Origin: Chlorobiaceae bacterium
GTDB lineage: Bacteria; Bacteroidota; Ignavibacteria; UBA10030; SZUA-254
Direction of reading: 5' to 3'
NCBI GenBank assembly: GCA_013824245.1
Contig: PNNN01000010.1
Location: 1-33,532, forward strand
DNA length: 33,532 bases
Shown here: positions 19,211-33,532 of the stretch, in pieces
How the letters are laid out: every line of letters begins with the position of its first letter
Numbering within the stretch: the stretch's first letter is position 1
Made by a program: the position numbers and the translations under genes
Notes under the pieces: model-generated
The model's input: only the letters and a program-made list of their open reading frames with translations
Told to the model about the DNA's origin: nothing
Databases searched by the model: none

Positions 19211-20647
19211 ATGCGTTCAACAATTTCATTCATTCTTGATGGAAAGATCGTTGATCTTGACTTTAAGAATTCAAAACAATTTTCCCCGACTTCAACCGCT
19301 TTAAATTATCTCAGAAGTTTTCCAGCCCACAAAGGTGTTAAAGAGGGATGTGCCGAAGGTGATTGCGGCGCCTGCACAGTGGTTCTTGCAGAACTTGTTG
19401 ATAATAAAATCACTTTCAGAGCTGTTGATTCATGTTTAATTTTCTTGCCGATGATACACGGGAAACAGTTAATTACAGTTGAGAATTTGAAAACCCCTGA
19501 AGGCATCCTTCACCCTGTTCAGCAATCGATGGTCGATCTTTACGGCAGTCAGTGCGGTTTCTGTACTCCCGGAATAATCATGACGATGTTTGCTTTCTAC
19601 AAAAATTATGACAAACCATCACGCGAACAAATTGATGATGCGCTAACCGGCAATCTCTGTCGTTGCACCGGCTATCGGCCGATTGTTGAAGCAGCAGCAA
19701 AATCGTGTGTACATAATTGTGTTGATCATTTTACAAATGATGAATCAAAAATAATCAAATTTCTAAAATCGATTTCCAAAGAATCGATTCATATTCAAAC
19801 CGACAATCAAAAATATTTCCGACCGGCAAGTCTGGGTGAAGCAATCTCACTCAAGCATCAACATCCTGAAGCAATAATCATCAGCGGTGCGACTGATATT
19901 GCGTTGCGCGTTACAAAAAACCATGAGTTGCTTAAAGAAATTATCGACCTTTCGGGTGTCGAAGAGCTTAAAGTAATTACCCAAACCGATTCATCGATAG
20001 AAATAGGCGCCGGTGTATCGCTGAATGATATTCTCTTGCCGATCGAAAAAGATTTTCCTGCGTTACACGAGATGCTTAAAATTTTCGGTTCACATCAAAT
20101 CAGAAATCTTGCCACGCTTGGTGGTAATCTCGGAAGCGCTTCTCCTATCGGCGATACTCTCCCAATATTAATGGCATATAATGCCGGCGTTGTACTCGAA
20201 AGTTTAAACGGCAGACGTGTAATTCCGCTTAACGATTATATAATCGGTTACAGAAAGACCGTTCGCAAACCTGACGAGCTGATCACTTCTATTATAATAC
20301 CGAAGTTAACTAACGGCTCGATCATAAAATCTTACAAGGTGTCAAAACGGAAAGATTTAGACATATCAACACTTAGTGCCTGTTTCAGGATTGATCTTGA
20401 CGGTAGTATGGTGAAGTCGATAATTCTCGCTTATGGTGGAATGGCTGAGCGAACTAAACGTGCTTTTACGGCTGAACAATTTCTTCTTGGCAAACAGTGG
20501 GAAAGAAAAATTATCGAGAAAGCGATGACTCTAATTGAAAAAGATTTCACACCGATTTCAGATGCAAGGGGAAGCGCGGAGTTTAGATTAAAAGCCGCCC
20601 AGAATTTACTGTTAAAGTTTCTTATTGAGACAAAAGGAACAAATTAA
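19211..20647 (+). CDS. xdhA: Xanthine dehydrogenase, 2Fe-2S/FAD subunit (XdhA type)
   Basis: 478 residues combining both electron-transfer modules, as in two-subunit xanthine dehydrogenases. The plant-ferredoxin-like 2Fe-2S site is Cys47, Cys52, Cys55 and Cys75. The second, helical 2Fe-2S domain uses Cys115 and Cys118 (CGFC) with Cys150 and Cys152 (CRC). Residues about 195-470 are the FAD-binding domain, with ISGATDIALRVTK and LGGNLGSASPIGD contacting FAD. It passes electrons from the molybdenum site to NAD+ or another acceptor. The Mo subunit follows after one intervening gene. A candidate promoter with a palindromic operator lies just upstream. Confidence 0.93.
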   Translation: MRSTISFILDGKIVDLDFKNSKQFSPTSTALNYLRSFPAHKGVKEGCAEGDCGACTVVLAELVDNKITFRAVDSCLIFLPMIHGKQLITVENLKTPEGILHPVQQSMVDLYGSQCGFCTPGIIMTMFAFYKNYDKPSREQIDDALTGNLCRCTGYRPIVEAAAKSCVHNCVDHFTNDESKIIKFLKSISKESIHIQTDNQKYFRPASLGEAISLKHQHPEAIIISGATDIALRVTKNHELLKEIIDLSGVEELKVITQTDSSIEIGAGVSLNDILLPIEKDFPALHEMLKIFGSHQIRNLATLGGNLGSASPIGDTLPILMAYNAGVVLESLNGRRVIPLNDYIIGYRKTVRKPDELITSIIIPKLTNGSIIKSYKVSKRKDLDISTLSACFRIDLDGSMVKSIILAYGGMAERTKRAFTAEQFLLGKQWERKIIEKAMTLIEKDFTPISDARGSAEFRLKAAQNLLLKFLIETKGTN

Positions 20648-20649
20648 AT

Positions 20650-21120
20650 ATGGATTTTACGGTTAATAAAAAAAGTAATTTTATTTTTCTTATTATTTTT
20701 GCGTTGATTTTTTGTATTCATAGTTCTGTCGTTGGACAAAAACAATCCGCGCCATCAGATACCGTCGAACTTACATCTTTAAAACATTGGCCCCAGCCGG
20801 TAAAACAAGTTCCACCCGAATATCCGACGCTTGCACGACAAAATAATGTTGAAGCCGAAATTATGCTCAGCGTTTTAATCGGCAAAGATGGTAAACCGAA
20901 AAAAATTAAAGTTACGAATGTTAAAACTTCTTTTATGAAAGAATCTTCAGTCAAGCAAACTGCATCAACACCTGATCCGAAGTATGCGAAATTATTTCAC
21001 AAACCATCGATTGATGCCGTAATGAAATGGCGGTTCACAAAACCGCTAAAGCCCGACAGCACTACAGCGCTGGTTTGGGTGAATGTGCCGCTGAAGTATC
21101 AGTTAACGACGCAGAAATAA
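20650..21120 (+). CDS. Secreted TonB C-terminal-domain-like protein
   Basis: 156 residues, starting 2 bases after the xdhA stop. An N-terminal hydrophobic segment (about 9-30, ending SSVVGQ) is a signal peptide or anchor. Residues about 45-152 resemble the TonB C-terminal fold: PPEYPTLARQNNVEAEIMLSVLIGKDGKPKKIKV, then DAVMKWRFTKPLKPD and the final strand WVNVPLKYQL. There is no proline-rich spacer, so it is not a classical energy-transducing TonB; proteins with a bare domain of this kind are common in Bacteroidota and often of unknown role. Its place between two xanthine dehydrogenase genes is unusual. Confidence 0.8.
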   Translation: MDFTVNKKSNFIFLIIFALIFCIHSSVVGQKQSAPSDTVELTSLKHWPQPVKQVPPEYPTLARQNNVEAEIMLSVLIGKDGKPKKIKVTNVKTSFMKESSVKQTASTPDPKYAKLFHKPSIDAVMKWRFTKPLKPDSTTALVWVNVPLKYQLTTQK

Positions 21121-21126
21121 TAGAAT

Positions 21127-21163
21127 AATGGATTACTGGAGTAATGGAGTAATGGATTACCCC
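21127..21163. repeat. Short tandem ATGGAGTA-type repeat
   Basis: Two adjacent copies of GGAGTAAT (21138-21145 and 21146-21153), flanked by related TGGATTAC units, begin just after the TonB-like stop. Simple repeats of the same style occur at 31662-31693. Confidence 0.55.
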
Positions 21164-21218
21164 ATCAATCCGAATATAGGTTGAGCAAAAAAAATAATTA
21201 TATGCACAAATACAAAAT

Positions 21219-23633
21219 ATGAAAACGGAAAATCAAATTCCTCACGATTCCGCTGTTGGCCATGTTACAGGCGAAGCAATATATATAGACGACATTCCGG
21301 TAAACGATCAGCTTCTTATCGGCAAAGTTGTTTACAGCCGATATGCACATGCAAAAATAAAATCGTTCGATTTGAGTGAAGCGAAAAAAGTAAACGGTGT
21401 TTATGCTGTATTATGCTACAAAGACATTCCCGGGCACAATCAAATGGGACCGGTTATAAAAGACGAGTCGGTTCTCGCAGAGAATGAAGTTACATTCATC
21501 GGACAAGCAATGTTTCTTATTGCCGCTGAAACCGAAGAGCAATGCCGCGAAGCTGAAAAACTCATCAAGATTGAGTATGAACCGCTCGATGCAATTCTGA
21601 CTATAGAAAAAGCGATAGAAAAAAACAATTTGTTAGGTCCGCCAAGAGAAATGAAACGCGGTGATGCCGACAGCGCATTGAAATCATCTAAGCATATAAT
21701 TAGCGGGGAACTCCGCACCGGCGCGCAAGAACACTGGTATCTTGAAACGCAAGCGTGTTTGTCTGTTCCGGGAGAAGGTAAAGAAATAAATGTTTTTAGT
21801 TCTTCCCAGCACCCGTCCGAAACACAGGCGCTTGTGGCAGAAGTTTTAGGTATAAAAAAGCACGAAGTTGTTGTTGAAGTAAAACGTATGGGCGGCGGTT
21901 TCGGTGGAAAGGAAACTCAGGCAAATCATGTTGCATGTTGGTCGGCTTTGTTGTGCCATGCTACAAAACGTCCGGTGAAAATCCGTTTATTCCGTGATGA
22001 TGATATGATTATGACAGGTAAACGCCATCGTTATCTCACAAAGTATGAAGCTGGTTTTGATGATGATGGATTAATCAATGCAGTGAAACTTGAATTCAAC
22101 AGCGATGGCGGCGCGGCAACAGATCTGTCGTTTGCGATCATGGAACGCACAATGCTTCATGCCGATAATTCATATTACATTCCGAATATGTCGGTAAAGG
22201 CGCTGGTATGGAAAACGAATCTTCCTTCGAACACTGCTTTTCGAGGATTCGGAGGTCCACAAGGTATGGCTGCAATCGAAACGATCATCGATAAGATTGG
22301 TCGCGCACTAAAAAAAGATCCGGCAGAAATCCGACATAAAAATTTTTATGGTCTGAATGATAGAAATATTACTCATTATGGACAAACCGTAGAGCATAAT
22401 CGACTTTACCTTATTTATGATCAGATAATAAAATCTTCCGAATATGAAAAACGTCGCAAAGAGATTAACGATTTCAACATTAAAAATGAATTCTTCAAAA
22501 AAGGTATAGCAGTTACTCCGGTGAAGTTTGGAATTTCTTTTACGACAACATTTCTCAATCAGGCAGGCGCTCTCGTGAATGTTTACACTGATGGGACTAT
22601 ACTTGTCAATCACGGCGGTACAGAAATGGGACAGGGACTCAACACAAAAATGCAGCAGATCGCCGCGGCAGAATTCGGTGTGAGCATAGATCGTGTGAAA
22701 GTAAATGCCACCAATACATCCAAAGTTCCGAACACATCGGCAACCGCCGCTTCATCCGGTTCCGATCTGAACGGTATGGCTGTGAAAAATGCAATCGATA
22801 TAATAAAAGAGCGAATATCTAAAGAGTTGGCACAAATCTGGACTCAACAACCCTCCAACCCTCCAACCCTCCAGCAATCCATCCTTTTCAAAGAGGATTA
22901 TATTTTCGACTCCGATCATCCTGAAAGAAAAATCTCTTTTTCCGATGCAATGCTTCAAATGAACTTGCGTCAGGTGAGTTTGAGTGCGGCGGGATTTTAC
23001 AAAACACCGACAGTCGGATGGGATAAGATTAAAGGACAGGGGAAACCGTTCTTTTATTATTCATTCGGAATGGCAGTTTCGGAAGTGATGATCGATATTC
23101 TTACGGGTCAGTATACGTTATTAAGAACGGATATTTTGCAGGATGTCGGAGATTCTATCAATTCCGGAATCGATATGGGACAGGTTGAAGGCGGATTCGT
23201 TCAGGGTATCGGCTGGTGTACAACTGAAGAAATCAAGTGGGATGCAAAAGGAAATTTGATGAATCATTCTCCGGACACATACAAGATTCCGACCGTACAG
23301 GATATACCGAAAGATTTTCGTGTTAAGTTGATGGAAGGAGTTCCGAATCCTGTCGGTACAATCCGCAGAAGTAAAGCAATCGGTGAGCCGCCGTTTATGC
23401 TTGCACTTTCTGTTTGGCTGGCAATCAAAGATGCGATCTCGGCAGTTGGCAATCATAAGTTTGAACCGGAGTTTTCACTGCCCGCAACAAATGAAACAAT
23501 ATTACTTTCGATTGAGAAATTGAAAGGGAAGTTTCATTCACCAACCCTCTACGAGTCTACAGACTCGAAGAGTCGTAGACCTAACCCCTCCAAAGGAGGG
23601 GAATCAGAGGTCTCCTCTCGAGAGGGGATTTAG
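21219..23633 (+). CDS. xdhB: Xanthine dehydrogenase, molybdopterin subunit (XdhB type)
   Basis: 804 residues, close to the usual size of XdhB. Active-site residues known from bovine and Rhodobacter enzymes are present: GGGFGGKE with Glu232 (bovine Glu802), Arg310 in IMERTM (bovine Arg880), FRGFGGPQ at 341-348, GQGLNTKMQQIAA near the cofactor and the catalytic base Glu723 in IGEPP. It should hydroxylate xanthine or hypoxanthine. Two oddities come from repeats: residues about 544-554 (QPSNPPTLQ) are encoded by a tandem 8-mer, and the last 28 residues or so are encoded by palindromic intergenic-type sequence. Neither removes a catalytic residue. It is separated from xdhA by the TonB-like gene. 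Confidence 0.93.
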   Translation: MKTENQIPHDSAVGHVTGEAIYIDDIPVNDQLLIGKVVYSRYAHAKIKSFDLSEAKKVNGVYAVLCYKDIPGHNQMGPVIKDESVLAENEVTFIGQAMFLIAAETEEQCREAEKLIKIEYEPLDAILTIEKAIEKNNLLGPPREMKRGDADSALKSSKHIISGELRTGAQEHWYLETQACLSVPGEGKEINVFSSSQHPSETQALVAEVLGIKKHEVVVEVKRMGGGFGGKETQANHVACWSALLCHATKRPVKIRLFRDDDMIMTGKRHRYLTKYEAGFDDDGLINAVKLEFNSDGGAATDLSFAIMERTMLHADNSYYIPNMSVKALVWKTNLPSNTAFRGFGGPQGMAAIETIIDKIGRALKKDPAEIRHKNFYGLNDRNITHYGQTVEHNRLYLIYDQIIKSSEYEKRRKEINDFNIKNEFFKKGIAVTPVKFGISFTTTFLNQAGALVNVYTDGTILVNHGGTEMGQGLNTKMQQIAAAEFGVSIDRVKVNATNTSKVPNTSATAASSGSDLNGMAVKNAIDIIKERISKELAQIWTQQPSNPPTLQQSILFKEDYIFDSDHPERKISFSDAMLQMNLRQVSLSAAGFYKTPTVGWDKIKGQGKPFFYYSFGMAVSEVMIDILTGQYTLLRTDILQDVGDSINSGIDMGQVEGGFVQGIGWCTTEEIKWDAKGNLMNHSPDTYKIPTVQDIPKDFRVKLMEGVPNPVGTIRRSKAIGEPPFMLALSVWLAIKDAISAVGNHKFEPEFSLPATNETILLSIEKLKGKFHSPTLYESTDSKSRRPNPSKGGESEVSSREGI
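22851..22874 (+). repeat. In-frame tandem 8-mer in xdhB
   Basis: Three consecutive copies of CCCTCCAR (22851-22858, 22859-22866, 22867-22874). The 24 bases keep frame and add Pro/Ser/Asn/Thr-rich residues in a linker of the Mo subunit. Confidence 0.8.
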
Positions 23634-23670
23634 GCCTGCCCGCCGCACAAAGCACGCTTTGGCAGGCGGG
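23547..23670. repeat. Nested palindromic repeats across the xdhB 3' end
   Basis: Successive hairpins run through the stop codon at 23631-23633. CGAGTCT pairs with AGACTCG around 23553-23568, and CTACGA with TCGTAG outside it. CCCCTCC-aaa-GGAGGGG lies at 23585-23601, and a CTCTCGAGAG palindrome around 23616-23625. A GC-rich element at 23635-23670 begins CCTGCCCGCC and ends GGCAGGCGGG, with inner arms CAAAG and CTTTG. The element sits between GATTTAGG and GGTGTGTC as if inserted there. Confidence 0.75.
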
Positions 23671-23720
23671 GGTGTGTCAATAATTATTACAGGATAAATG
23701 GAAAATATAAAAATAATTAA

Positions 23721-23782
23721 CCACGGATATTCACAGATTTGAATTATCCGTGTTAATCCGTATAATCAGTGTCATCAGTGGT
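23721..23782. repeat. Dispersed CCACGGAT/ATCCGTG-type repeat
   Basis: CACGGATA (23722-23729) and TATCCGTG (23745-23752) form an 8-bp stem, followed by further AATCCGT and ATCAGTG units up to CAGTGGT. Sequences of this style recur between genes in many bacterial genomes. It ends 10 bases before the threonine synthase ATG, so it also forms that gene's leader. Confidence 0.6.
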
Positions 23783-23791
23783 AAATAAAAT

Positions 23792-25075
23792 ATGAAATTT
23801 TCTCCTCCTCAATATGTAAACAATTTGAAATGTCTCGTCTGCGGTTCATCATATTCGCATGGCAACATCTTTACATGTCCACATTGTGGCATCGAAGGCA
23901 TCCTCGATGTTCAATATGATTATGAAGCAATAGTTCAAAATCCGAAATCCCTGCCCGCCGCTTCGCTTCGGCAGGCGGGCGCAATACGCAATCCGCAATC
24001 TTCTGATATTTGGCGATACAAAGATTTGCTTCCTATTTCACAAGAAATTCCGCTACCGCATTTGCATGTTGGCTGGACGCCGGTTTACGATGTGCCCCGG
24101 CTTGCCCGTTATTTCGGACTCAGAAAATTATTCTTGAAAGATGATGGCCGCAACCCGACAAACTCTTTTAAAGATCGCGCAAGTGCAATCGGAGTTATGA
24201 AAGCAATGGAGTTCGGTTTCAATACAATCGCATGTGCGTCAACAGGTAACGCCGCTTCATCGCTTGCCGGATTGTCTGCGGCAGTCGGGTTGAAGAGCTA
24301 CATTTTTGTTCCTGAGCGTGCGCCTGAACCAAAAATTACACAGCTACTCATTTTCGGTGCGACTGTATTCAGGGTAAAAGGAACTTACGAACAGGCATTC
24401 GATCTCAGCAAACAATCTTGCGATCAGTTCGGATGGTACAACAGGAACAGCGGAACGAATCCTTTTCTTGTTGAAGGAAAAAAAACCGCCGGACTCGAAA
24501 TTGCGGAACAAATGAAAGAACATTTACCCGATTGGGTTGTTGTCTCTGTTGGTGATGGCTGTACAATTGGCGGAATAGGAAAAGGTTTACAGGAGATGAA
24601 ACAACTTGGTCTCATCGACAGAGTACCACGGCTATTAGGAGTTCAAGCCGAAGGGGCGAAACCAATTCTCGATGCGTTTGCTTCAGGGAAAGATTTAATT
24701 CCAACAGGTACGAACACAATAGCCGATAGCATTGCAGTCGGCACACCGCGGAATTGGCGGCGTGCGATTCAGCAAGTCAGATCGTCGCACGGTGAAATGG
24801 TTGCCGTATCTGACGAAGAAATTTTAGAAGCTATGCGGGTTACCGCACGGCTTGGCGGTGTGTTCGGCGAACCGGCAGGTGTCGCAGGCGCAGCCGGTTT
24901 AAAAAAAGCCGTTGAACAGAAAATTGTAAAATCTAATGAAACTGCCGTAATAGTTATTACCGGAAACGGACTGAAAGATATCCAATCTGCAAAACAAGCC
25001 GCAGGTAAAGAACATTTAGTAGAGCCAACACTTGATGCCGTTGCAGAGCTTCTTGAAAAACAACTGAAACTATAA
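23792..25075 (+). CDS. thrC: Threonine synthase-type PLP enzyme with zinc ribbon
   Basis: 427 residues. The N-terminal zinc ribbon has Cys14/Cys17 and Cys29/Cys32. The fold-type II PLP core follows: Lys127 in NPTNSFKDRAS binds PLP, STGNAASS (150-157) holds the phosphate, and GDGCTIGGIGKG and GVFGEPAGVAG match threonine synthases. The reaction expected is O-phosphohomoserine to threonine. Residues about 53-69 are encoded by a GC-rich palindrome inserted in frame in the linker after the zinc ribbon. The neighbouring metA favours a real homoserine-pathway enzyme. In E. coli-type purine clusters the same place is taken by another fold-type II enzyme, diaminopropionate ammonia-lyase (YgeX), so a changed substrate is possible. 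Confidence 0.85.
   Translation: MKFSPPQYVNNLKCLVCGSSYSHGNIFTCPHCGIEGILDVQYDYEAIVQNPKSLPAASLRQAGAIRNPQSSDIWRYKDLLPISQEIPLPHLHVGWTPVYDVPRLARYFGLRKLFLKDDGRNPTNSFKDRASAIGVMKAMEFGFNTIACASTGNAASSLAGLSAAVGLKSYIFVPERAPEPKITQLLIFGATVFRVKGTYEQAFDLSKQSCDQFGWYNRNSGTNPFLVEGKKTAGLEIAEQMKEHLPDWVVVSVGDGCTIGGIGKGLQEMKQLGLIDRVPRLLGVQAEGAKPILDAFASGKDLIPTGTNTIADSIAVGTPRNWRRAIQQVRSSHGEMVAVSDEEILEAMRVTARLGGVFGEPAGVAGAAGLKKAVEQKIVKSNETAVIVITGNGLKDIQSAKQAAGKEHLVEPTLDAVAELLEKQLKL
23950..23979 (+). repeat. GC-rich palindrome inserted in the thrC frame
   Basis: Begins CCTGCCCGCC and ends GGCAGGCGGG, with a CTTCG-rich centre. It keeps the reading frame (Leu-Pro-Ala-Ala-Ser-Leu-Arg-Gln-Ala-Gly) and is followed by CGCAATACGCAATCCGCAA-type simple sequence, also translated. 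The same termini occur at 23635-23670 and, shortened, at 8231-8249. Confidence 0.85.
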
Positions 25076-25083
25076 ATCCCTTT

Positions 25084-25122
25084 GCGTCTTTTTCTCGGGA
25101 ATTCCATCGGGAAAAGTGACGC
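25084..25122. repeat. Imperfect inverted repeat between thrC and ssnA
   Basis: GCGTC-TTTTTCTCGG (25084-25098) pairs imperfectly with CGGGAAAAGTGACGC (25108-25122). No T run follows on the plus strand, so termination is unlikely and transcription may continue into the amidohydrolase gene. Confidence 0.4.
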
Positions 25123-25145
25123 TAAGATAAAACATTGGAAAAATT

Positions 25146-26429
25146 ATGCTACTCAAAAACACAACATCGATAGTTCTTGATCCACCTTCGATTGAATCTG
25201 TCGACATTCGTCTTCTCAACTGTGATATCATGGAGAGGGGAAAAAACCTAACACCAAAGAAAGGCGAAGAAGTGCACGACTTTTTAGGCAGGATTGTCAT
25301 GCCGGGACTCGTGAACTCGCATACGCATCTCTATTCGGCGCTTGCAAGGGGGATGTCGTATCCTAAAGAGCCGCCTCAGAATTTTCTTGAAATCTTACAA
25401 AAAATTTGGTGGAAACTTGACCGCGCGCTTGATGAAGATGCAATCTATTATAGTGCGCTTGTCGGAGCAATAGATGCGGTGCGATGTGGAACCACAACGC
25501 TTATCGATCATCATGCATCTCCGAAATCGATCACCGGCTCACTTGATGTTATCAAAGAAGCGATGTGGGAAGTCGGGTTGCGGGGCGTATTGTGTTATGA
25601 AGTAACAGATCGCGGCGGAAAGAAAGAGCGCGACAAAGGTTTGGAAGAAAACGAACGGTTCATTAAAGACAACAAAAAGAATTCACAGTTCCGAGGAATG
25701 GTCGGCGCACATGCCGCTTTCACAATGAGCAATGAAACCATGCGTCTCTGCGGTGAAATGGCTTCGAAGTATAAAGTCGGAGTGCATATTCATGTTGCTG
25801 AAGATAAATCGGATGTAACCGATGCGGAAGAAAACTACCGTTGCAGTGTAATCGATCGTTTGAAAGAAAATGGAATTCTTCGGAAGGATTCAATCCTCGC
25901 TCATGGTGTTCACTTGAATGAAAAGGAAGTTAATGAAGTTAAGAAGGTGGGAAGTTGGTTGATGCACAATCCGCGTTCAAACATGAACAACCGTGTCGGC
26001 TACGCACCGTTGCATTTATTCGGTGAGCGCGTGGGTTTGGGAACAGACGGATTTCCGGCAGATATGTTTGAAGAATCGAAAATAGGATTTTATAAGAGGC
26101 AGGATTCGCGTGCAGACGAAAACGTAAACATGGCTAAGCTTCTGCAAAATGGGCAACGGACAATTTCAGAAATATTCGGTCAGAAATTCGGATCGCTTAA
26201 GAAAGGTTCTCCCGCTGATATAGTTGTACTCGATTATCAGCCGCCGACGCCGATGACTGTAGAAAATCTTGCCGGGCATTTTCTTTTCGGCATGAACTCA
26301 TCGATGGTCGAATCGGTTATGATCGACGGTAAGTGGGTTGTGAAGAACCGTGTTTTGATTGGATTCGATGTGGAATCGGTTTATGAGAAATCGAGAAAGG
26401 TGGCTAAGAAGTTGTGGGAGAAGATGTAA
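25146..26429 (+). CDS. ssnA: SsnA-type amidohydrolase (aminohydrolase)
   Basis: 427 residues of the amidohydrolase superfamily, closest in pattern to SsnA and the TrzN/AtzA/guanine deaminase group. The metal site is His59 and His61 (SHTHLYSALARGM), His216 and Glu219 (HIHVAE), His253 (LAHGVHLNE) and Asp301 (GTDGFPADMFEE); the HNPRSNMNNRVGYAP stretch is also typical. The expected chemistry is hydrolytic deamination or ring opening of an N-heterocycle. In E. coli ssnA lies with ygfK, xdhD and ygfM, and here it lies between two molybdenum hydroxylases, so a purine-derived substrate is likely. It ends 24 bases from the convergent metA stop. Confidence 0.85.
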   Translation: MLLKNTTSIVLDPPSIESVDIRLLNCDIMERGKNLTPKKGEEVHDFLGRIVMPGLVNSHTHLYSALARGMSYPKEPPQNFLEILQKIWWKLDRALDEDAIYYSALVGAIDAVRCGTTTLIDHHASPKSITGSLDVIKEAMWEVGLRGVLCYEVTDRGGKKERDKGLEENERFIKDNKKNSQFRGMVGAHAAFTMSNETMRLCGEMASKYKVGVHIHVAEDKSDVTDAEENYRCSVIDRLKENGILRKDSILAHGVHLNEKEVNEVKKVGSWLMHNPRSNMNNRVGYAPLHLFGERVGLGTDGFPADMFEESKIGFYKRQDSRADENVNMAKLLQNGQRTISEIFGQKFGSLKKGSPADIVVLDYQPPTPMTVENLAGHFLFGMNSSMVESVMIDGKWVVKNRVLIGFDVESVYEKSRKVAKKLWEKM

Positions 26430-26453
26430 ACAACTTTGATTTTAACATTTCAG

Positions 26454-27347
26454 CTACACCCCGCCGTACCGTTTGGAATAGATACTCTTTAGCCACCGTG
26501 CGAAAAACTCATTACCCTCTTCCCACCAAGTATTTTTAGGATTATTCACATCGAAATTTGCCGGAGCGCTCTCGAGTCCTTTTTGTATATCGCGGAAATG
26601 TTCGAAGACAATCCGCTCCGCGTCGTACTCATGATGTCCTAAGTGACCGATGAATCGTCCATCGCCCGATTCGAATATGAAATGTCCGGCTTCTTCAGAA
26701 TGCGCGAGAAGATTGATTTTCCCAGCATCGGCAGCGATGCGTAAATCATTCTCGTTAAATCCGGCATACCTGCTCTGCGGACAATAAAATGTATCGTTCA
26801 ACCCGTCGGTGATCGGATGATTACGGTTCAGATTTTTCGAGGCATACACGCCGAATAATTTTTTAGCGTAATTAATTTTTTCCACACCGAATATTTTCGC
26901 AATAGCAAGTCCGCCCCAGCAAATACCAAGTGTGCTGACGATATTCGTGTTTGCATAACTAAAAATTTCTAACAATTCTTTCCAGTAAGTTACAGCTTCG
27001 AACGGGATCGTTTCAACAGGCGCTCCTGTTATAATCAATCCGTCTAATGGTTCGTTTTTAATTGCTTCCTCAAAAGTCAGATACCATTGTTTTATATAAT
27101 CTTTATCGCTGCTCTTATAGTTATGATTTGTCGCTCTTATCCAAGCCGGAATAACAGAAATATTCGAATTTCCAATTGAACGTAAAATACTAAATTCATA
27201 CTTCTCCGCTTCGGGCATTACATTGAATATGCCGATTCGTAACATGTGTTGAGCCTGAGTTTCTGTAATCTGTTTTTCAATGCATGTAATTCCCTGCTCA
27301 CGCAATAAATCTGTTATAGGATAGTTATTTGGTATTATTAATGCCAT
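26454..27347 (-). CDS. metA: Homoserine O-acyltransferase MetA, probably acetyl-CoA type
   Basis: 297 residues, the usual size. The catalytic Cys143 (LGICWGG) and His238/Glu240 (GHHEYD) align with Cys142, His235 and Glu237 of E. coli MetA. The position that decides acyl-CoA choice (residue 111 in E. coli) is Glu112 here, in TGAPVETIPF. Glu is found in acetyl-CoA-using members and Gly in succinyl-CoA-using ones, so O-acetylhomoserine is the likely product for methionine synthesis. It is the only minus-strand gene in the right-hand cluster and is divergent from the second hydroxylase operon across 92 bases. No riboswitch is visible in that gap. Confidence 0.93.
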   Translation of the reverse strand: MALIIPNNYPITDLLREQGITCIEKQITETQAQHMLRIGIFNVMPEAEKYEFSILRSIGNSNISVIPAWIRATNHNYKSSDKDYIKQWYLTFEEAIKNEPLDGLIITGAPVETIPFEAVTYWKELLEIFSYANTNIVSTLGICWGGLAIAKIFGVEKINYAKKLFGVYASKNLNRNHPITDGLNDTFYCPQSRYAGFNENDLRIAADAGKINLLAHSEEAGHFIFESGDGRFIGHLGHHEYDAERIVFEHFRDIQKGLESAPANFDVNNPKNTWWEEGNEFFARWLKSIYSKRYGGV

Positions 27348-27439
27348 AGAAATAATATACTATCTATTTTTGAAAATCCAATCCTTGGAAATCTCCTCTA
27401 AATTCACGAAATTGATACACTTATTCATAAAAATCGTAA

Positions 27440-29788
27440 ATGAAACACAAAATCATAGGCAAGGGAGAACGCAGAGTAGATGCTCTCGGTAAAGTAACCG
27501 GTACGGCAAAGTATGCCGAGGACTTTAATGTTATGCATCAATTGTATGGTAAAGTACTGCGTGCCAAACATCCTCACGCCAAAATTCTAAAGATCGATAT
27601 ATCTAAAGCGCAAAAACTTGAAGGTGTCGAGGCAGTTCTTACCGCGAACGATATTCCGGGAGATAAAGTTTTCGGCGTTGTGGTGAAGAATCAGGCAATA
27701 CTCGCTCAAGATAAAGTCAGGTATCTCGGTGACGGTGTAGCGCTGGTTGCCGCGAAGACAAAAGAGATTGCCGAACAAGCCGTATCATTAATCGAAGTTG
27801 AATATGAGACACTGCCGATAATTTCGGACTCCGAAGAAGCGTTCAAGCCTGAATCAATAAAAATTCATGGCGATGATAATCAATTTGTACATCATCATGT
27901 AACCAAAGGTGATATTGAGAAAGGTTTTAATGAATCTGATTTTATTATCGAAAAAAAATTCAAGACACAATTTATAGAACACTCGGCTATTGAACCGGAA
28001 GCCGTACTTGCCGAACCGGCTGAGCACGGCGGTGTTATAGTAACGGGATCAGTCCAAAACCTTTTCTCAACTCGACGTTCCGTTGCCGGCGCACTCAAAC
28101 TAGATCTCAACAAAGTTCAGATAATTCAGTCAACACTTGGCGGTTCATTCGGCGGTAAGGATGAAGTAATGACCGCAATGTGTTGTCGTGCCGCTTTGCT
28201 TTGTATGAAAACAGGGAAACCTGTGAAGATGGTTAACACACGCGAAGAGTCGATGATCGAAAGTTACAAACGGCATCCGTATGTTCTCTATTATAAGTGG
28301 GGCTGTAAGAAGAATGGTTCGATCACCGCGATGGAAATAAAATGTATTGCCGATGGCGGTGCGTATGCTTCGATGAGTCCGTTTGTAACATGGCGCTCTG
28401 TTGTTCAGGCAACGGGTCCGTACTACTGCGAGAATGTTAAGACAGATGTTTATGCCGTTTATACGAACAACAATTACACAGGAGCGATGCGCGGTTTCGG
28501 TTCACCGCAGGTGAACTTTGCAATTGAATCGATGATGGATGAACTTGCCGAGAAAGTTGGAAAAGATCCTTTCGAGATTCGTTTGCAAAATGGATTTGAA
28601 ACCGGTGCTGTTACTGCAACAGGACAGAAGCTCAATCATCGTGTGAGCTTGAAAGAAGTTCTAACAAAATCGGCTGAAGCGGCTGATTTTCTGAATAAAT
28701 GGAATCAATATCGCACTTCCAAACAATCTCCGAAGCGCAAAGGTATCGGGCTTGCATGCAGTTATCGCGGTGTTTCGCTTGGCGCTGAAGGAACCGATGC
28801 CGCCGGTACAATTGTCTCGGTTCAAACAGATGGAAGTGTGATTGTCTCTTCAGGAATTACAGACATGGGACAGGGAGCGCAAACGCAGATGTCGCAGATT
28901 GCCGCTGAGGTTCTTGGTATAACGATGGATCGAATCCAATTTTTGAATACGAACACAAGTCGTGTCCCCGATTCCGGACCAACCGTAGCATCGCGCGGTA
29001 CAATCATGGGCGGTGCGGCGGCGAAGAAGGGTGCCGAAATTGTTCGTGCATTTCTGATTAAAACCGCATCCGAGATGACGGGGCTTGATGTTATGTCGTT
29101 AGATTTGAAAGACAATTATCTGATTGATACCAACAACGGTGAACGACTTGCATCGTTCAACGAAGTTGCAGCGGAATGTTTTAACAAAGGCAGACCGATG
29201 TACGGCTTCGGCTGGCATAAATCACCGCAAACATCGTGGGATGAACATCACGGTCATGGTGAAGCGTATTTTACATTTGTTTACGGAGCTAACATTGCCG
29301 AGGTGGAAGTGGATACCGAAACCGGTAAAGTTGATGTTTTGAATTTTGTTTCTTGTCATGATGTCGGCAAGGCGATCAACCGCAATTCGGTGCTCGGACA
29401 GTTTTACGGCGGTGTCGCTATGGGACTTGGTTACGGATTGATGGAGGAATTCAATTTTGAAGATTCAATTCCGAAACAATTGAACTTTGATGAATATTTA
29501 ATCCCAACATCGATGGATGTTCCGAATATCATACCGATAATTGTTGAGAATGAAGACGCGGCGGGACCATACGGTGCAAAATCAATCGGTGAACCTTCGA
29601 ATGAATTGGCGGCGCCTGCAATCATCAATGCAATTTATAACGCTACGGGCAAGCGCATTTATGAAATTCCTGCGACACTCGAAAGAGTTCTACTCGGGCA
29701 TAAGCTTACAAGAAAAGGTGAACGTGGTTCAGTGAAGAAGGAAGAAGTTTTGGCAGATTCGTGCAAGATTAGACCGGAGGGAAGATGA
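27440..29788 (+). CDS. Second molybdenum hydroxylase, Mo subunit
   Basis: 782 residues of the xanthine dehydrogenase/CO dehydrogenase large-subunit family. The N-terminal RVDALGKVTGTAKYAED, the Mo-cofactor motif GGSFGGKD, MRGFGSPQ, DMGQGAQTQMSQIA and the catalytic base Glu718 in IGEPS are intact. At the position of bovine Glu802 it has Asp241 instead of Glu, while an Arg (Arg319 in TWRSV) falls at the spacing of Arg880. The active site therefore resembles a purine hydroxylase but is not canonical. The FAD and 2Fe-2S subunits follow as separate genes, unlike the first hydroxylase. The FAD gene starts in a 4-base overlap (ATGA). The layout resembles E. coli xdhD-ygfM. Substrate not predictable. 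Confidence 0.88.
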   Translation: MKHKIIGKGERRVDALGKVTGTAKYAEDFNVMHQLYGKVLRAKHPHAKILKIDISKAQKLEGVEAVLTANDIPGDKVFGVVVKNQAILAQDKVRYLGDGVALVAAKTKEIAEQAVSLIEVEYETLPIISDSEEAFKPESIKIHGDDNQFVHHHVTKGDIEKGFNESDFIIEKKFKTQFIEHSAIEPEAVLAEPAEHGGVIVTGSVQNLFSTRRSVAGALKLDLNKVQIIQSTLGGSFGGKDEVMTAMCCRAALLCMKTGKPVKMVNTREESMIESYKRHPYVLYYKWGCKKNGSITAMEIKCIADGGAYASMSPFVTWRSVVQATGPYYCENVKTDVYAVYTNNNYTGAMRGFGSPQVNFAIESMMDELAEKVGKDPFEIRLQNGFETGAVTATGQKLNHRVSLKEVLTKSAEAADFLNKWNQYRTSKQSPKRKGIGLACSYRGVSLGAEGTDAAGTIVSVQTDGSVIVSSGITDMGQGAQTQMSQIAAEVLGITMDRIQFLNTNTSRVPDSGPTVASRGTIMGGAAAKKGAEIVRAFLIKTASEMTGLDVMSLDLKDNYLIDTNNGERLASFNEVAAECFNKGRPMYGFGWHKSPQTSWDEHHGHGEAYFTFVYGANIAEVEVDTETGKVDVLNFVSCHDVGKAINRNSVLGQFYGGVAMGLGYGLMEEFNFEDSIPKQLNFDEYLIPTSMDVPNIIPIIVENEDAAGPYGAKSIGEPSNELAAPAIINAIYNATGKRIYEIPATLERVLLGHKLTRKGERGSVKKEEVLADSCKIRPEGR

Positions 29789-30681
29789 AACCTTTCGAGT
29801 ACAGAGCGGTTCACTCGGTTGAAGAAGCGGTATCAGTTTTAGCTGAATACGGCTCAGATGCGCGCATTCTAGCCGGTGGCACAGATTTGCTTATCGAATT
29901 GCGCAAACAGAATGTCAAAACTCCGAAAGTTGTTATTGATATTTCATTCATAAAAGAATTACGCGGTATCGAATCCCCGAATGGTACAGTAATGCTACAA
30001 TCATTGACTACTCATTCAGAGATCGTAAATTCAAAAGTTGTCCAACAATATGCTTCGCTTCTTACGGGAGCTGCATCAGTTATTGGTTCGCCTCAGATTA
30101 GAAACAAGGGAACAGTCGGTGGTAATATCATGAACGCTGCCACATGTGCAGATACAGTTCCGCCATTAATCGCTCTTGGAGCGAAGATAACACTGAAATC
30201 AAAAACCAATTCAAGACAAATCGATCTTTCTGATTTATTCATCAAACCGTATCAGACAAAAGCTAAACCGGAAGAAATTTTGACAGAAATTCAATTTCCA
30301 AAACTTTCATCGAATGTAAAAAGCTCATTCATTAAACTCGGAAGAAGAAACGCGCTATCCATTTCACGATTGAGTGTTGCCGCGATTCTAACTCAAGATA
30401 AAAATGGAAAAATCACTGATGCCCGGATAGTTCCCGGTGCTGCGCTTCCGGTATGGAGACGAGTTACCGAAGCTGAAATATTATTGATTGGAAAAAAACC
30501 ATCGAAAGAATTGTTCACTGCTGCCGGACAAAAAGTATCTGAAGTCATGATTTCGCATACAGGCAGACGCTGGTCAACAGAATATAAAGAACCGGTGATC
30601 GCAACTTTGGTTAGAAGAGCGTTGGAGATGTGTGTGGGGGATTTAAAAGATTTGAAAGATTTAAAAGATTTGAAAGATTGA
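29785..30681 (+). CDS. Molybdenum hydroxylase FAD subunit (YgfM/CoxM type)
   Basis: 298 residues. The PCMH-type FAD-binding motifs are present: ILAGGTDLLIELRK near 32-45 and TVGGNIMNAATCADTVPP near 110-128. The C-terminal CO-dehydrogenase flavoprotein domain contains LGRRNALSISRLSVAA. It accepts electrons from the 2Fe-2S subunit. The start overlaps the Mo subunit stop (ATGA). The final residues are four Asp-Leu-Lys units encoded by a 9-base tandem repeat, and the stop codon itself lies in the fifth repeat unit, so the natural C-terminus was probably just before residue 285. The partner 2Fe-2S gene is displaced 519 bases downstream by a four-helix-bundle gene. Confidence 0.9.
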   Translation: MKPFEYRAVHSVEEAVSVLAEYGSDARILAGGTDLLIELRKQNVKTPKVVIDISFIKELRGIESPNGTVMLQSLTTHSEIVNSKVVQQYASLLTGAASVIGSPQIRNKGTVGGNIMNAATCADTVPPLIALGAKITLKSKTNSRQIDLSDLFIKPYQTKAKPEEILTEIQFPKLSSNVKSSFIKLGRRNALSISRLSVAAILTQDKNGKITDARIVPGAALPVWRRVTEAEILLIGKKPSKELFTAAGQKVSEVMISHTGRRWSTEYKEPVIATLVRRALEMCVGDLKDLKDLKDLKD

Positions 30682-30720
30682 AAAGATTGGAAAGATTGGA
30701 AGAATTGGAAAGATTTGAAT
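30640..30720 (+). repeat. Nine tandem 9-base units at the FAD-subunit 3' end
   Basis: Nine exact-length units of GATTTRAAA or close variants fill 30640-30720. The first four read as Asp-Leu-Lys; in the fifth (GATTGAAAA) the lost T creates the TGA stop at 30679-30681. The rest is untranslated leader for the next gene. Confidence 0.92.
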
Positions 30721-30749
30721 GATTATAAAATATTTTTAGGGGATAACGT

Positions 30750-31139
30750 ATGGGTAAAAAGATTGAGAGGTTTGAGGATTTAGAAGTTTGGCAAAAAGCA
30801 ATAGATATAGCAGTTGATATTTATAGGTTAAGTGAAAGCGGGAAGCTTAGTAAAGATTATGATTCGAAGAGCCAGATTAGACGAGCGGCAAATTCTATTT
30901 CGAACAATATCGCGGAAGGATTTGAATACAACAACAATAGTGAATTTGTTAGGTTTTTGAAATATGCAAAAGGATCAGCAGGCGAAGTAAGGAATCAACT
31001 CCATTTGCTGAAAAAGATAGGATATATAGATGAACCGATTTTTGATTCCATGTATAATAAAATCATTGAGCTATCACAACAAATAGCAAACTTTATTAAG
31101 TATTTAAGAAAATTTGAAACAACCAAAAAACCAAAGTAA
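30750..31139 (+). CDS. Four-helix bundle protein (23S rRNA intervening-sequence family)
   Basis: 129 residues. The family pattern is clear: FEDLEVWQKAIDIAVDIYRL at the start, SQIRRAANSISNNIAEGFEY in the second helix, the EFVRFLKYAKGSAGEVRNQL helix and a last amphipathic helix before a basic tail. Members were first found encoded in intervening sequences of 23S rRNA genes but are also common as isolated genes; the function is unknown. AGGGGA precedes the ATG. It separates the FAD and 2Fe-2S subunit genes of one enzyme and looks like a later arrival, with a tandem repeat directly upstream. Confidence 0.92.
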   Translation: MGKKIERFEDLEVWQKAIDIAVDIYRLSESGKLSKDYDSKSQIRRAANSISNNIAEGFEYNNNSEFVRFLKYAKGSAGEVRNQLHLLKKIGYIDEPIFDSMYNKIIELSQQIANFIKYLRKFETTKKPK

Positions 31140-31199
31140 TAAAATATTTCTCTTAATTTTTTCAATTATTGAATCATTTTAATTATTACAATTATCTCA

Positions 31200-31661
31200 A
31201 TGTCCACAGTTACGATAAATACAAAAATAAACAACCGCAAATACTCGCTCGCAGTTGCTCCAAATACGACGCTTCTCCATTTCCTTCGCGAAGAGCTAGG
31301 ATTGACCGGAACAAAATGCGGTTGCGAAATCGGTGAGTGCGGCGCTTGCACGGTTTTGCTCAACGGTGAAGCGGTGAATTCGTGCCTTGTGCTTGTTCCT
31401 CAAATAGATGGAAAAGAAATTCTCACCGTAGAAGGATTGGCAAAGGATGGCAAGCTTCATCCACTCCAAGAATCGTTCATGGATCACGATGCTGTCCACT
31501 GTGGTTTCTGCACTCCTGGAATGTTGATGAGTGCAAAAGCGTTGCTCGACAAGAATCCCGATCCTGATGAGAAAGAAATTCGAACTGCGATTTCGGGAAA
31601 TTTGTGTAGATGCACGGGATATGTTCAGATTGTAGATGCGATTAAAGAAGTAGTCAAGTAG
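31200..31661 (+). CDS. Molybdenum hydroxylase 2Fe-2S subunit (CoxS type)
   Basis: 153 residues, the size of a stand-alone CoxS/XdhC-type small subunit. The ferredoxin-like cluster is Cys42, Cys47, Cys50 and Cys62 (GCEIGECGACTV). The helical cluster domain has Cys101/Cys104 (CGFCTPG) and Cys136/Cys138 (NLCRCTGY). It links the molybdenum site at 27440-29788 to the FAD subunit at 29785-30681. No clear ribosome-binding site precedes the ATG. A short tandem repeat begins at the base after its stop. Confidence 0.93.
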   Translation: MSTVTINTKINNRKYSLAVAPNTTLLHFLREELGLTGTKCGCEIGECGACTVLLNGEAVNSCLVLVPQIDGKEILTVEGLAKDGKLHPLQESFMDHDAVHCGFCTPGMLMSAKALLDKNPDPDEKEIRTAISGNLCRCTGYVQIVDAIKEVVK

Positions 31662-31693
31662 TTGAGTATTTGAGTAACTGAGTAACCGAGTAA
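31662..31693. repeat. Four tandem 8-base GAGTAA-type units
   Basis: TTGAGTAT, TTGAGTAA, CTGAGTAA and CCGAGTAA follow each other without gaps, directly after the 2Fe-2S subunit stop. Degenerate TTAAG units continue to the Shine-Dalgarno of the next gene. Confidence 0.8.
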
Positions 31694-31716
31694 TTAAGAA
31701 TTAAGGATAGAATCAA

Positions 31717-33532
31717 ATGATAAAAAATAAATCTATTTCGATTGATAAAAAGAAAACAAACCACATTGCTGAATTTCTCACCGACGCACAACTTCGTGCA
31801 GAAATCGAGAAGTGCGAATACTGCGAAGAGAAACCCTGTAAAGAAGCCTGCCCGGTAGATTGCTCACCTGCCGATTTTATTATGGCTGTGAAAGTAGGCA
31901 GCCGCGCTGATTACCGGCGTTCTGCCGCACTCATTATGGGAAGCAACCCTCTTGGTGGAGTTTGCGGTGCAGTTTGTCCAGACACTCATTGCGTGAAGGC
32001 ATGTGTCCACCGTACGTTTGATTCAGCGGTAAACATACCGGCAGTTCAGGCAACGATTATCGAAAAAGCCAAACAACAAGATGTAATGCCTGAGTTTGAA
32101 ACGTTTCCTCTTAACGGTAAAAAGGTAGCAATACTCGGTGCAGGTCCGGCAGGAATCGGTGCGGCAGCCGTCCTTGCTCAGAAGGGATATACTATAGATA
32201 TATTTGATAAGTCAAAAACACCGGGCGGTATGTGTAACCTGATTCCGGATTCAAGATTATCGCCAAATGTTTTGAAAACCGACATAGATTTCTTTTTAAC
32301 TTTAGGAAAAATTTCTTTCAAGGATATTAAAAAATTAACCGCAGGCATGAAAGGGTATGATGCCGTTCTTAATGCAACAGGTTTAGATGAAGTATTTATT
32401 CCTCCTATGATTGGCAGTGAATCAGCAATTGACTGGATGAAGTATCTCAGTAACGCTAACCGATATTCGGTGAAGGGAAAGCGTGTTGCAATAATTGGCG
32501 GCGGAGCGGTTGCGCTTGATTGCGCTGAGGAAGCTCTCGCACATGGCGCTTCGAACGTCGAGATGTTTGCACTCGAAACCTGGTCGGAGATGCCGCTGAC
32601 TGCAAAAGAACGACAAGCAACACAGGAGTTGGGTATTGCTATAACAGGAAGAGTGAGAGTTACAGAAATTCTTAAAAAAGGGAAACTTGTTACCGGATTA
32701 AAAACTATTAAAGTTGTGCTACCGCGCGGTAAGAAGTTCCATCCAAAAAACATAAACGATTTGAAGGGAACAGAACAAATTCTTCCGAACGTGGATTTTG
32801 TAATTATCGCAACCGGAGCGCGTTCTTCTATTCAAAAAACAAATAATGCACGAATGTTTTATACAGGCGACATGGTTACCGGTCCAACTACAGTCGTTGA
32901 AGCAGTAGCCGCGGGTAAAAATTCCGCAATGGAAATTGATGCGTTTATTTCCGGAAGCCGCTATAAACCGGATGTTACAAAAATTGATGGAAAAACAAAG
33001 AGCCGTGTAATAATGCCGGGGCGTGTTATGCTGCCGGTTCCGATAAAAGCTGAATTCTTCGGTCGTGAAATCATATCACCGTTTTTACTCTCTGCGGCGC
33101 CACCTTCCGACGGTTATGAGCAAATGAAAAAAGCTTACGAAGCGGGCTGGGCTGGCGGCGTGATGAAAACTGCCTTTGATAACATTCCGATTCACATCCC
33201 GTCGGAGTACATGTTTGCTTTCTCGAAATCGACTTATGCCAATTGCGACAATGTTTCGGGGCATCAACTTGAACGTGTTTGCCGCGAAGTTAAGAAGTTA
33301 GTCAAGGAATTTCCTGACCGTTTGACAATCGCTTCAACAGGTGGTCCTGTAACCGGAAACGATGAGCTTGATAGCGCAGTCTGGCAATCTAACACAAAAA
33401 AGTTGGAGGCAGCAGATGCTATGGGAATCGAGTATAGTCTTTCATGTCCGCAAGGTGGAGATGGAACAAAAGGCGACATCGTATCTCAGGATGCTGAGTT
33501 GACTGCAAAGATAATAGATTGGATAATGGAAG
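31717..33532 (+). CDS. Fused PreT-PreA dihydropyrimidine dehydrogenase-like protein, 3' end outside window
   Basis: 605 residues are visible and the frame is open at the right edge. Start: ATG with AAGGA (31703-31707) upstream. The N-terminal twin 4Fe-4S domain has Cys33, 36, 41, 45 and Cys83, 87, 92, 96. An FAD Rossmann site (ILGAGPAGIGAA, about 139-150) and an NAD(P)H Rossmann site (IIGGGAVALDCA, about 259-270) follow, as in PreT and GltD. From about residue 440 a dihydroorotate dehydrogenase-like FMN barrel begins (LLSAAPPSDGYEQMKKAYEA, then SCPQGGDG), as in PreA. This is the domain order of mammalian DPD, whereas E. coli splits it into PreT and PreA. It reduces pyrimidines or a related ring with NAD(P)H. 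The position of the mammalian catalytic Cys appears to be Val here. Confidence 0.88.
   Translation, partial: MIKNKSISIDKKKTNHIAEFLTDAQLRAEIEKCEYCEEKPCKEACPVDCSPADFIMAVKVGSRADYRRSAALIMGSNPLGGVCGAVCPDTHCVKACVHRTFDSAVNIPAVQATIIEKAKQQDVMPEFETFPLNGKKVAILGAGPAGIGAAAVLAQKGYTIDIFDKSKTPGGMCNLIPDSRLSPNVLKTDIDFFLTLGKISFKDIKKLTAGMKGYDAVLNATGLDEVFIPPMIGSESAIDWMKYLSNANRYSVKGKRVAIIGGGAVALDCAEEALAHGASNVEMFALETWSEMPLTAKERQATQELGIAITGRVRVTEILKKGKLVTGLKTIKVVLPRGKKFHPKNINDLKGTEQILPNVDFVIIATGARSSIQKTNNARMFYTGDMVTGPTTVVEAVAAGKNSAMEIDAFISGSRYKPDVTKIDGKTKSRVIMPGRVMLPVPIKAEFFGREIISPFLLSAAPPSDGYEQMKKAYEAGWAGGVMKTAFDNIPIHIPSEYMFAFSKSTYANCDNVSGHQLERVCREVKKLVKEFPDRLTIASTGGPVTGNDELDSAVWQSNTKKLEAADAMGIEYSLSCPQGGDGTKGDIVSQDAELTAKIIDWIME

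Follow-up and report, generated by a model that had tools for sequence, protein, structure and literature searches.

A likely variant, without YgeX, of the operon for reductive purine/urate degradation in a Chlorobiaceae genome bin

Contig PNNN01000010.1 of a Chlorobiaceae bacterium (assembly GCA_013824245.1), which belongs to the Ignavibacteria, analysed here over its whole 33,532 nucleotides and referred to as the window, carries at positions 19211 to 33532 a run of genes that is likely to be the left part of a variant operon for reductive, oxygen-independent purine/urate degradation. The variant would do without YgeX, the last enzyme of the published pathway, its final lyase chemistry being carried out by a pair of pyridoxal phosphate (PLP) enzymes, one resembling threonine synthase (ThrC-like; 23792 to 25075, plus strand) and the other resembling CysK and encoded further to the right in relatives. 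An initial annotation, made from the letters of the window alone, had read a xanthine dehydrogenase (XDH), a PLP enzyme, the aminohydrolase SsnA, a split molybdenum hydroxylase and a PreT-PreA flavoprotein as a candidate purine/urate degradation cluster. Profile matches placed each of these genes where it had been read, and the proposed function gained support from the continuation of the run in related genomes and from the co-occurrence described below. From this gene context we consider it very likely that the cluster degrades purines. The ThrC-like/CysK-like pair, which is the new element relative to known reductive urate clusters, has something close to, but not above, an even chance of containing a 2,3-diaminopropionate lyase.

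Co-occurrence of the PLP enzyme pair with SsnA

SsnA (25146 to 26429, plus strand) scored above the cut-offs of two models (NF005540, 504.8 vs 444; TIGR03314, 488.4 vs 455.5). In a survey of 98 genomes of the order, 48 were SsnA-positive (39 with the main type and nine with only a second type at 39-43% identity) and 50 were not, pieces of split genes having been joined and matches below about 135 bits being taken as other amidohydrolases. By presence sets compiled by hand among the matches listed, the ThrC-like protein, the CysK-like protein and YgeY were each found in 46 of the 48 SsnA genomes and in none of the 50 others. Because the genomes of a single order cannot be treated as independent, genera were counted as well: each of the two PLP proteins occurred in 25 of the 26 genera with SsnA, and YgeY in all 26, as against none of 29 other genera for any of the three. 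The 46 genomes scored positive for the ThrC-like protein comprised 39 at 63% identity or more, one with a fragment (G015) and six at 40-44%; two of these last six proteins were read, and both had the motifs of the family. Both PLP genes were present in 44 genomes of the order and each was present alone in two. YgeX homologues above 200 bits, by contrast, were found in only three of the 48 SsnA genomes, and in six of the 50 others. Thus, the published last enzyme is mostly missing from the order, whereas two different PLP enzymes go with the pathway, and it is this absence of YgeX that sets the cluster apart from the Escherichia coli type. Of the parallel drawn in the initial annotation with the E. 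coli xdh/ygeX/ssnA/ygfK/ygfM genes, SsnA stands, the second molybdenum hydroxylase and the flavoprotein are candidate counterparts, and ygeX has no such homologue in 45 of the 48 SsnA genomes. The suggestion that the pathway may be a variant fits these results, YgeX being mostly missing and PreT-PreA standing instead of YgfK.

Where a genome of the order carried the ThrC-like gene, this gene and ssnA shared a contig and lay within 3 kb of each other in 42 of 46 cases, which argues that their grouping is not due to chance. Scattering of the genes in relatives, which would have spoken against a cluster, was accordingly not what the comparison of gene orders revealed.

The association extends beyond the order. 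A collection search with the ThrC-like protein of the window returned 79 loci, of which 54 had an aligned member of what we term the VGDG family (defined by the motif VGDG at one place of the alignment), 11 had another ThrC-like protein and 14 had no aligned protein, five of these 14 having pathway markers. At least one pathway marker was present in the fetched flank of 46 of the 54 VGDG-family loci, compared to none of the 11 other ThrC-like loci. The VGDG-family loci span Ignavibacteria, Acidobacteriota, Chloroflexota, Bacillota, Spirochaetota, Caldisericota and others, and the CysK-like gene adjoins the ThrC-like gene in loci of Blautia, Desulfosporosinus, Treponema and Chloroflexota, among others. 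In one Caldisericota and one Chloroflexota locus, the ThrC-like gene was accompanied by two YgeW-like genes and a YqeA-like kinase. A locus from Bacilli (L078) combined YgfK, SsnA, YgeY, YgeW, a hydantoinase, an XdhD-like protein and the PLP pair; the 21 kb read contained no YgeX. The closest relatives of the window protein in a named collection came from metagenome-assembled genomes of Bacteroidota and Ignavibacteria, the best being 90% identical (isolate DeMMO2_4).

Divergence of the ThrC-like protein from threonine synthases

The ThrC-like protein is a fold-type II PLP enzyme that matches PF00291 and passes TIGR00260 (229.5 vs 167.1), while its best-scoring model, NF006050, remained under the cut-off (280.6 bits vs 303). 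Its best solved matches are threonine synthases (2zsj, 2d1f, 6cgq and 1uim). The earlier description of the enzyme as threonine synthase-like therefore holds at the level of the profile, but requires amendment in that Leu226 of the window protein indicates that it is probably not a threonine synthase. An Arg and an Asn of threonine synthase hold the phosphate of the substrate. The column of Leu226 was occupied by Arg in all 17 other ThrC-like proteins of the order, as well as in E. coli ThrC and in the solved 2zsj, 2d1f and 6cgq, within the motif (Y/F)R(L/I/M)EG(Q/K)KT or an equivalent. Of these 17 proteins, 16 were aligned and the motif of the 17th was read directly. In the extraction of proteins by script, 17 of 20 loci yielded one, and the motifs of the other three (L183, L185 and L186) were read separately. 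Five of the 17 adjoin a thrB gene. In the VGDG family, the same column held Leu in 67, and Met, Thr and Cys in one each, of 70 aligned rows (63 distinct, there being seven identical pairs). Asp255 in the VGDG motif of the window family likewise stands where 2zsj, 2d1f and 6cgq have the Asn of VGNAGN. This exchange of Arg and Asn would suit a substrate whose side chain bears a positive charge, as does that of 2,3-diaminopropionate.

In a tree from which the rows of L134-L152 and rows shorter than 300 residues were excluded, the VGDG family formed a supported clade of its own (97/99), within which E. coli YgeX fell on a very long branch. The window protein shares 22% identity over 371 residues with E. 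coli YgeX and is not its orthologue, although both are fold-type II PLP enzymes linked to the same pathway genes, and the tree places YgeX poorly. We regard the position of YgeX inside the family clade as an unproven long-branch artefact. A literature search on active-site residues of threonine synthase and of diaminopropionate lyase yielded nothing usable, and another found nothing joining threonine synthase with carbamate kinase, hydantoinase and purine.

Proposed pathway and competing explanations

The step order of the pathway we propose is that of the anaerobic urate pathway worked out biochemically in 2025 (PMC12507026), on which a commentary has also appeared (PMC12990295). XDH (19211 to 23633) would convert hypoxanthine/xanthine to urate, and the second molybdenum hydroxylase (27440 to 31661) would reduce urate to 2,8-dioxopurine, which the PreT-PreA fusion (PreTA; from 31717) would dearomatise with the reduced nicotinamide cofactor NAD(P)H. 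SsnA would then open the six-membered ring and a hydantoinase the other ring, whereupon a YgeW-like protein and YgeY would remove the two ureido groups to leave 2,3-diaminopropionate. The ThrC-like enzyme and its CysK-like partner, in place of YgeX, would finally turn 2,3-diaminopropionate into pyruvate and ammonia.

The two XDH genes, both on the plus strand, are xdhS (19211 to 20647), encoding the small subunit with 2Fe-2S and flavin adenine dinucleotide (FAD) domains (TIGR02963, 572.7 bits vs a cut-off of 467), and xdhL (21219 to 23633), encoding the molybdopterin subunit (TIGR02965, 1062.8 bits vs 849.5). XdhL found its best solved match in 1jro chain B (E=2.7e-208) and has Glu, Arg and Glu at the columns of what we take to be residues 232, 310 and 730 of Rhodobacter capsulatus XDH, three presumed active-site columns that are thus kept. 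With both equivalog models passed and these columns kept, the two proteins are assigned to XdhAB.

The second molybdenum hydroxylase, likewise on the plus strand, consists of a molybdopterin subunit (Mo2L; 27440 to 29788; PF02738, PF20256, PF01315), an FAD subunit (29785 to 30681; PF00941, PF03450) and a 2Fe-2S subunit (31200 to 31661; PF01799, PF00111). XDH models score highest with Mo2L among the NCBIfam models, and the three XDH active-site columns hold Asp, Arg and Glu. We infer from its sequence and context that it is a candidate urate to 2,8-dioxopurine reductase. PreTA (31717 to 33532, plus strand) was recognised by PreT and PreA domain profiles as a dihydropyrimidine-dehydrogenase-like protein, its 3' end being open because the contig stops at 33532. 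It scored 143 bits with the YgfK model, whose cut-off is 835. Full-length homologues measure 836 residues in G005 and 858 in G004. The closest solved protein to the G005 homologue is the dihydropyrimidine dehydrogenase 1gt8 (E=8e-51), with which it shares the Cys of the SCP motif while Ser and Gln replace the adjacent Asn and His; around this motif, the window copy agrees with the G005 homologue. The Asn and His of 1gt8 presumably bind pyrimidine. PreTA is put forward as a candidate for the dearomatising reductase.

The place of these two components in the operon appears to be filled by either of two modules. Among 17 loci of the order (16 relatives and the window), 12 had the split molybdenum hydroxylase with PreT/PreA or PreTA, four (G014, G093, G077 and G072) had a selenium-type XDH with an N-terminal half of YgfK, and one (G011) had neither in the stretch read; none had both. 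The proteins of G072, the only ones on which models were run, scored 983 vs 830 with TIGR03311 and 384 vs 835 with the YgfK model, the latter over 430 N-terminal positions out of 1012. The two modules may thus be interchangeable at one place, which would mirror the XdhD+YgfK and XdhD+UacX modules of E. coli and Clostridioides difficile (PMC12507026). This swap offers a further prediction amenable to testing.

The continuation to the right was read in relatives. G019, from the same genus, has the matching run on a 1.4 Mb contig, with 84-96% protein identity from xdhS through the second molybdenum hydroxylase (the metA-like gene of the window excluded). Its 2Fe-2S gene is followed, with other genes interspersed, by a protein resembling an M28 peptidase by appearance, PreT, PreA and a CysK-like PLP enzyme of 482 residues, after which come RnfC-like and PduT-like BMC proteins, then YgeY, a deaminase resembling TadA, a transcarbamylase resembling YgeW, an XdhC-family factor and a protein similar to MocA. 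YgeY (594.7 bits vs 321) and PreA were above their cut-offs; the RnfC-like (narrowly), BMC and TadA-like proteins were under theirs. A true YgeW was found in G052 (650 vs 453 bits). The expectation that YgeW, YgeY and HyuA equivalents and an XdhC-type protein would lie just past the right end of the window was in part borne out in relatives: YgeY is there, as are a YgeW-like and an XdhC-family gene, while the contig of the host itself ends. Going by G004 and G005, the host run past 33532 is predicted to comprise, in this order, the end of PreA, a second SsnA, the CysK-like gene, YgeY, a YgeW-like gene and XdhC/MocA. As to HyuA, the host does have a dihydropyrimidinase/hydantoinase (TIGR02033, 604.5 bits vs 393), but outside the cluster, on another contig (C7:34033); homologues at 56-59% identity lie within the cluster in three of the 16 relatives read (G031, G053 and G052).

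Compared to the E. coli cluster for reductive uric acid degradation (xdhD-ygfM, ygfK, ssnA, hyuA, ygeW, ygeY, ygeX; PMC12507026), the present system has in common SsnA, a hydantoinase, a second molybdenum hydroxylase that has an FAD subunit of its own, and a flavoprotein of dihydropyrimidine dehydrogenase type, together with the YgeY orthologue and the YgeW-type gene seen in relatives of the host. It differs in the PLP enzymes, in the replacement of YgfK by PreT-PreA and in having a complete XDH within the same run. The dearomatising enzyme of the C. difficile UacX (PF01180)/UacY variant is also of the PydA/dihydropyrimidine dehydrogenase family (PMC12507026); by description rather than by sequence comparison, our system departs from it in that the PreT (FAD/NAD(P)H) half is attached or adjacent, and relatives of the host have YgeW-type genes.

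Several findings weigh against the proposed reading. Three genomes (G055-G057) have SsnA together with a YgeX homologue, and two (G092 and G079) have SsnA, YgeY and the CysK-like gene but no detected ThrC-like orthologue; eight of the 54 VGDG-family loci are without a marker, and four loci (one from Blautia and three from Desulfosporosinus) carry YgeX alongside the ThrC-like gene. At the position of the Asn, the 17 other ThrC-like proteins have Asn in six cases and Gly in 11, so that the argument from charge depends for the most part on the Arg. With YgeX falling inside the clade, the VGDG family stood alone on one side of a branch in just 4% of bootstrap trees. The second molybdenum hydroxylase reached no listed curated cut-off (best model of Mo2L, NF043082, 569 bits vs 780), and among solved proteins Mo2L matched 4-hydroxybenzoyl-CoA reductase (360.7 bits) and nicotinate dehydrogenase (345) better than XDH (286). 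Its identity to E. coli XdhD is 30%, and Glu606 of XdhD has no aligned counterpart; an identity of 25.63% has been reported for C. difficile XdhD (PMC12507026). In G019, the YgeW-like transcarbamylase is short and under its cut-off (261 bits vs 453), as are the XdhC-family factor, narrowly (340.2 vs 350), and the MocA-like protein (142.9 vs 186). Finally, neither YgeY (best match E=5.5e-4) nor the CysK-like gene was found in the assembly of the host, whose best YgeW match was a carbamoyltransferase on contig C19 (35% identical, 143 bits). We attribute the missing YgeY and CysK-like gene to the contig break, and the presence of YgeY and YgeW in the host is predicted from its relatives. Continuation of the cluster on another contig of the same assembly was considered and discarded, the remaining half of PreA being found no more than the CysK-like gene and YgeY, and YgeW only as this 35% match. 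The best YgeX match in the host reached 32 bits.

That the PLP gene is an ordinary threonine synthase, placed in a purine cluster by accident, is very unlikely. The protein is the sole one in its genome above the TIGR00260 cut-off and another homoserine enzyme, the metA-like gene, is encoded nearby, both of which would fit that account. It would, however, lack an obvious source of O-phosphohomoserine, given that no homoserine kinase reached the TIGR00191 cut-off of 168 in a search covering this kinase type in the host (best 48 bits), G019 (35) and G016 (47). A second ThrC-like protein above about 50 bits was not found in these three genomes by a single-protein search (with TIGR00260 run on the host genome), but 21 of the 46 genomes with the gene do have a separate one, and all 11 of these that were read keep the Arg. 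Leu226, the separate clade, the lack of a homoserine kinase above the TIGR00191 cut-off and the linkage to ssnA led us to reject a housekeeping threonine synthase. As a separate observation, the host has a MetA-like gene yet no homoserine kinase above the cut-off, and may be a threonine auxotroph or use another route. The notion that the cluster degrades another N-heterocycle, such as a pyrimidine, a nicotinate-like or a hydantoin compound, is improbable as well; the solved-protein ranking of Mo2L and the kinship of PreTA with dihydropyrimidine dehydrogenase speak for it, but a genuine XDH and SsnA both belong to the run, which in relatives goes on to YgeY and a YgeW-like gene, and G005 PreTA has Ser and Gln in place of the Asn and His of 1gt8.

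A more substantial doubt, which we consider a real if not a favoured possibility, is that the pathway is right but that the ThrC-like/CysK-like pair acts on a different intermediate or on a side product, such as a single enantiomer, or directly on a ureido-alanine. The Blautia and Desulfosporosinus loci, in which YgeX accompanies the pair, imply that the two enzymes may do something else, and two different PLP enzymes travelling together exceed the need of a single lyase step. On the other hand, so few SsnA genomes of the order have YgeX, and the Bacilli locus L078 would have a vacant last step without the pair over the 21 kb read. We thus retain the reading in which the pair does the final lyase chemistry. 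Its broadest form, in which a YgeX-less urate pathway is widespread in Ignavibacteria and may extend to those Bacillota, Chloroflexota and Acidobacteriota that have the VGDG family, the last step being taken by VGDG PLP and CysK-like enzymes and a ThrC pocket of changed charge (Arg to Leu, Asn to Asp) fitting the cationic 3-amino side chain, is offered tentatively.

Were the pair to be the lyase, proteins scoring as threonine synthase would be misnamed, and genomes scored as being without the last step would actually have it. YgeX was counted through the whole PLP fold family PF00291 in the published survey (PMC12507026), a procedure in which its replacement would be hidden, since the ThrC-like protein of the window matches PF00291 too. 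The SsnA network described there spans Pseudomonadota, Bacillota, Chloroflexota, Actinomycetota, Spirochaetota and Elusimicrobiota, and the main text of that paper contains none of the strings "Ignavi", "Bacteroid" or "threonine". Literature matches on Ignavibacteria and purines were judged unrelated going by the listing.

Remaining genes of the window and of the host genome

The window is an entire contig (C27) of a genome bin of 3.23 Mb in 76 contigs. Its gene order is xdhS, a TonB-like gene, xdhL, the ThrC-like PLP gene, ssnA, a metA-like gene on the minus strand, the three genes of the second molybdenum hydroxylase and PreT-PreA. Three genes present in the window were absent from the earlier list of its contents. 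The TonB C-terminal-like protein (20650 to 21120, plus strand; PF03544, 38.9 bits vs 24.6) is encoded between the two xdh genes and has a counterpart in G019 at 85% identity. The metA-like homoserine O-acyltransferase gene (26454 to 27347, minus strand; PF04204, 274.8 bits) was present in G019 only (78% protein identity) among the 16 relatives' stretches read, and is probably a passenger. The third gene (30750 to 31139, plus strand), between the FAD and 2Fe-2S genes, encodes a putative four-helix-bundle protein so named by its appearance only; it is taken to be a passenger, and the same interval is gene-free in G019 and G016, unlike in the window. Directly upstream of it lie short repeats of the GATTTAAAA/GATTTGAAA type (repeats and gene together, window 30640-31139), and the GATTTGAAA-like run also encodes the repetitive terminus of the FAD protein of the second molybdenum hydroxylase. 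The G019 cluster encodes two proteins resembling the putative four-helix-bundle protein (47% and 29%).

Positions 31227 to 33532 of the window are 86% identical in DNA to G005, a member of another family, as compared to 67-77% for the preceding stretches. The DNA match of the window to G019, of its own genus, ends at 31648, and G019 has separate PreT and PreA proteins, 29-33% identical, instead of the fusion. This end of the window looks like a horizontal exchange of PreTA or a chimeric contig end, the last 2 kb being too short for a comparison of composition. Individual genes of the cluster may have been exchanged too, as hinted by G004 and G019, whose YgeW-like proteins are 95% identical (L140:4558-5559 in G004), with 88% for the CysK-like protein, 86% for YgeY and 45-46% for XdhC and MocA. 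The RnfC-like gene and a gene for a two-domain PduT-like BMC shell protein lie between the CysK-like gene and YgeY in G019 (L135:4093-6371), for which reason a microcompartment was considered; matches to BMC, however, were found in 67 of the 98 genomes surveyed, for example in G004 and G005 on contigs other than that of the cluster.

Two further loci of the host genome bear on related chemistry. The last 11 kb of contig C13 (L009) encode an FdrA-family protein (NF004760, above its cut-off), two further genes without an NCBIfam match at 1e-20, and a three-subunit molybdenum hydroxylase. Contig C25 (L007, L008) carries a second urate-type cluster, with two large molybdenum hydroxylase proteins, an SsnA above the NF005540 cut-off, an LLM-class (F420-type) reductase under its cut-offs, and cofC, cofD, cofE and npdG above theirs. 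It is alike to the F420 variant of the urate cluster reported for Chloroflexota (PMC12507026). Its tetranucleotide composition correlated at r 0.47-0.57 with that of the bin and of relatives' stretches (0.64-0.91 among themselves) and at 0.43-0.44 with two Chloroflexota loci. As a tetranucleotide outlier, contig C25 is probably a foreign contig of unsure origin.

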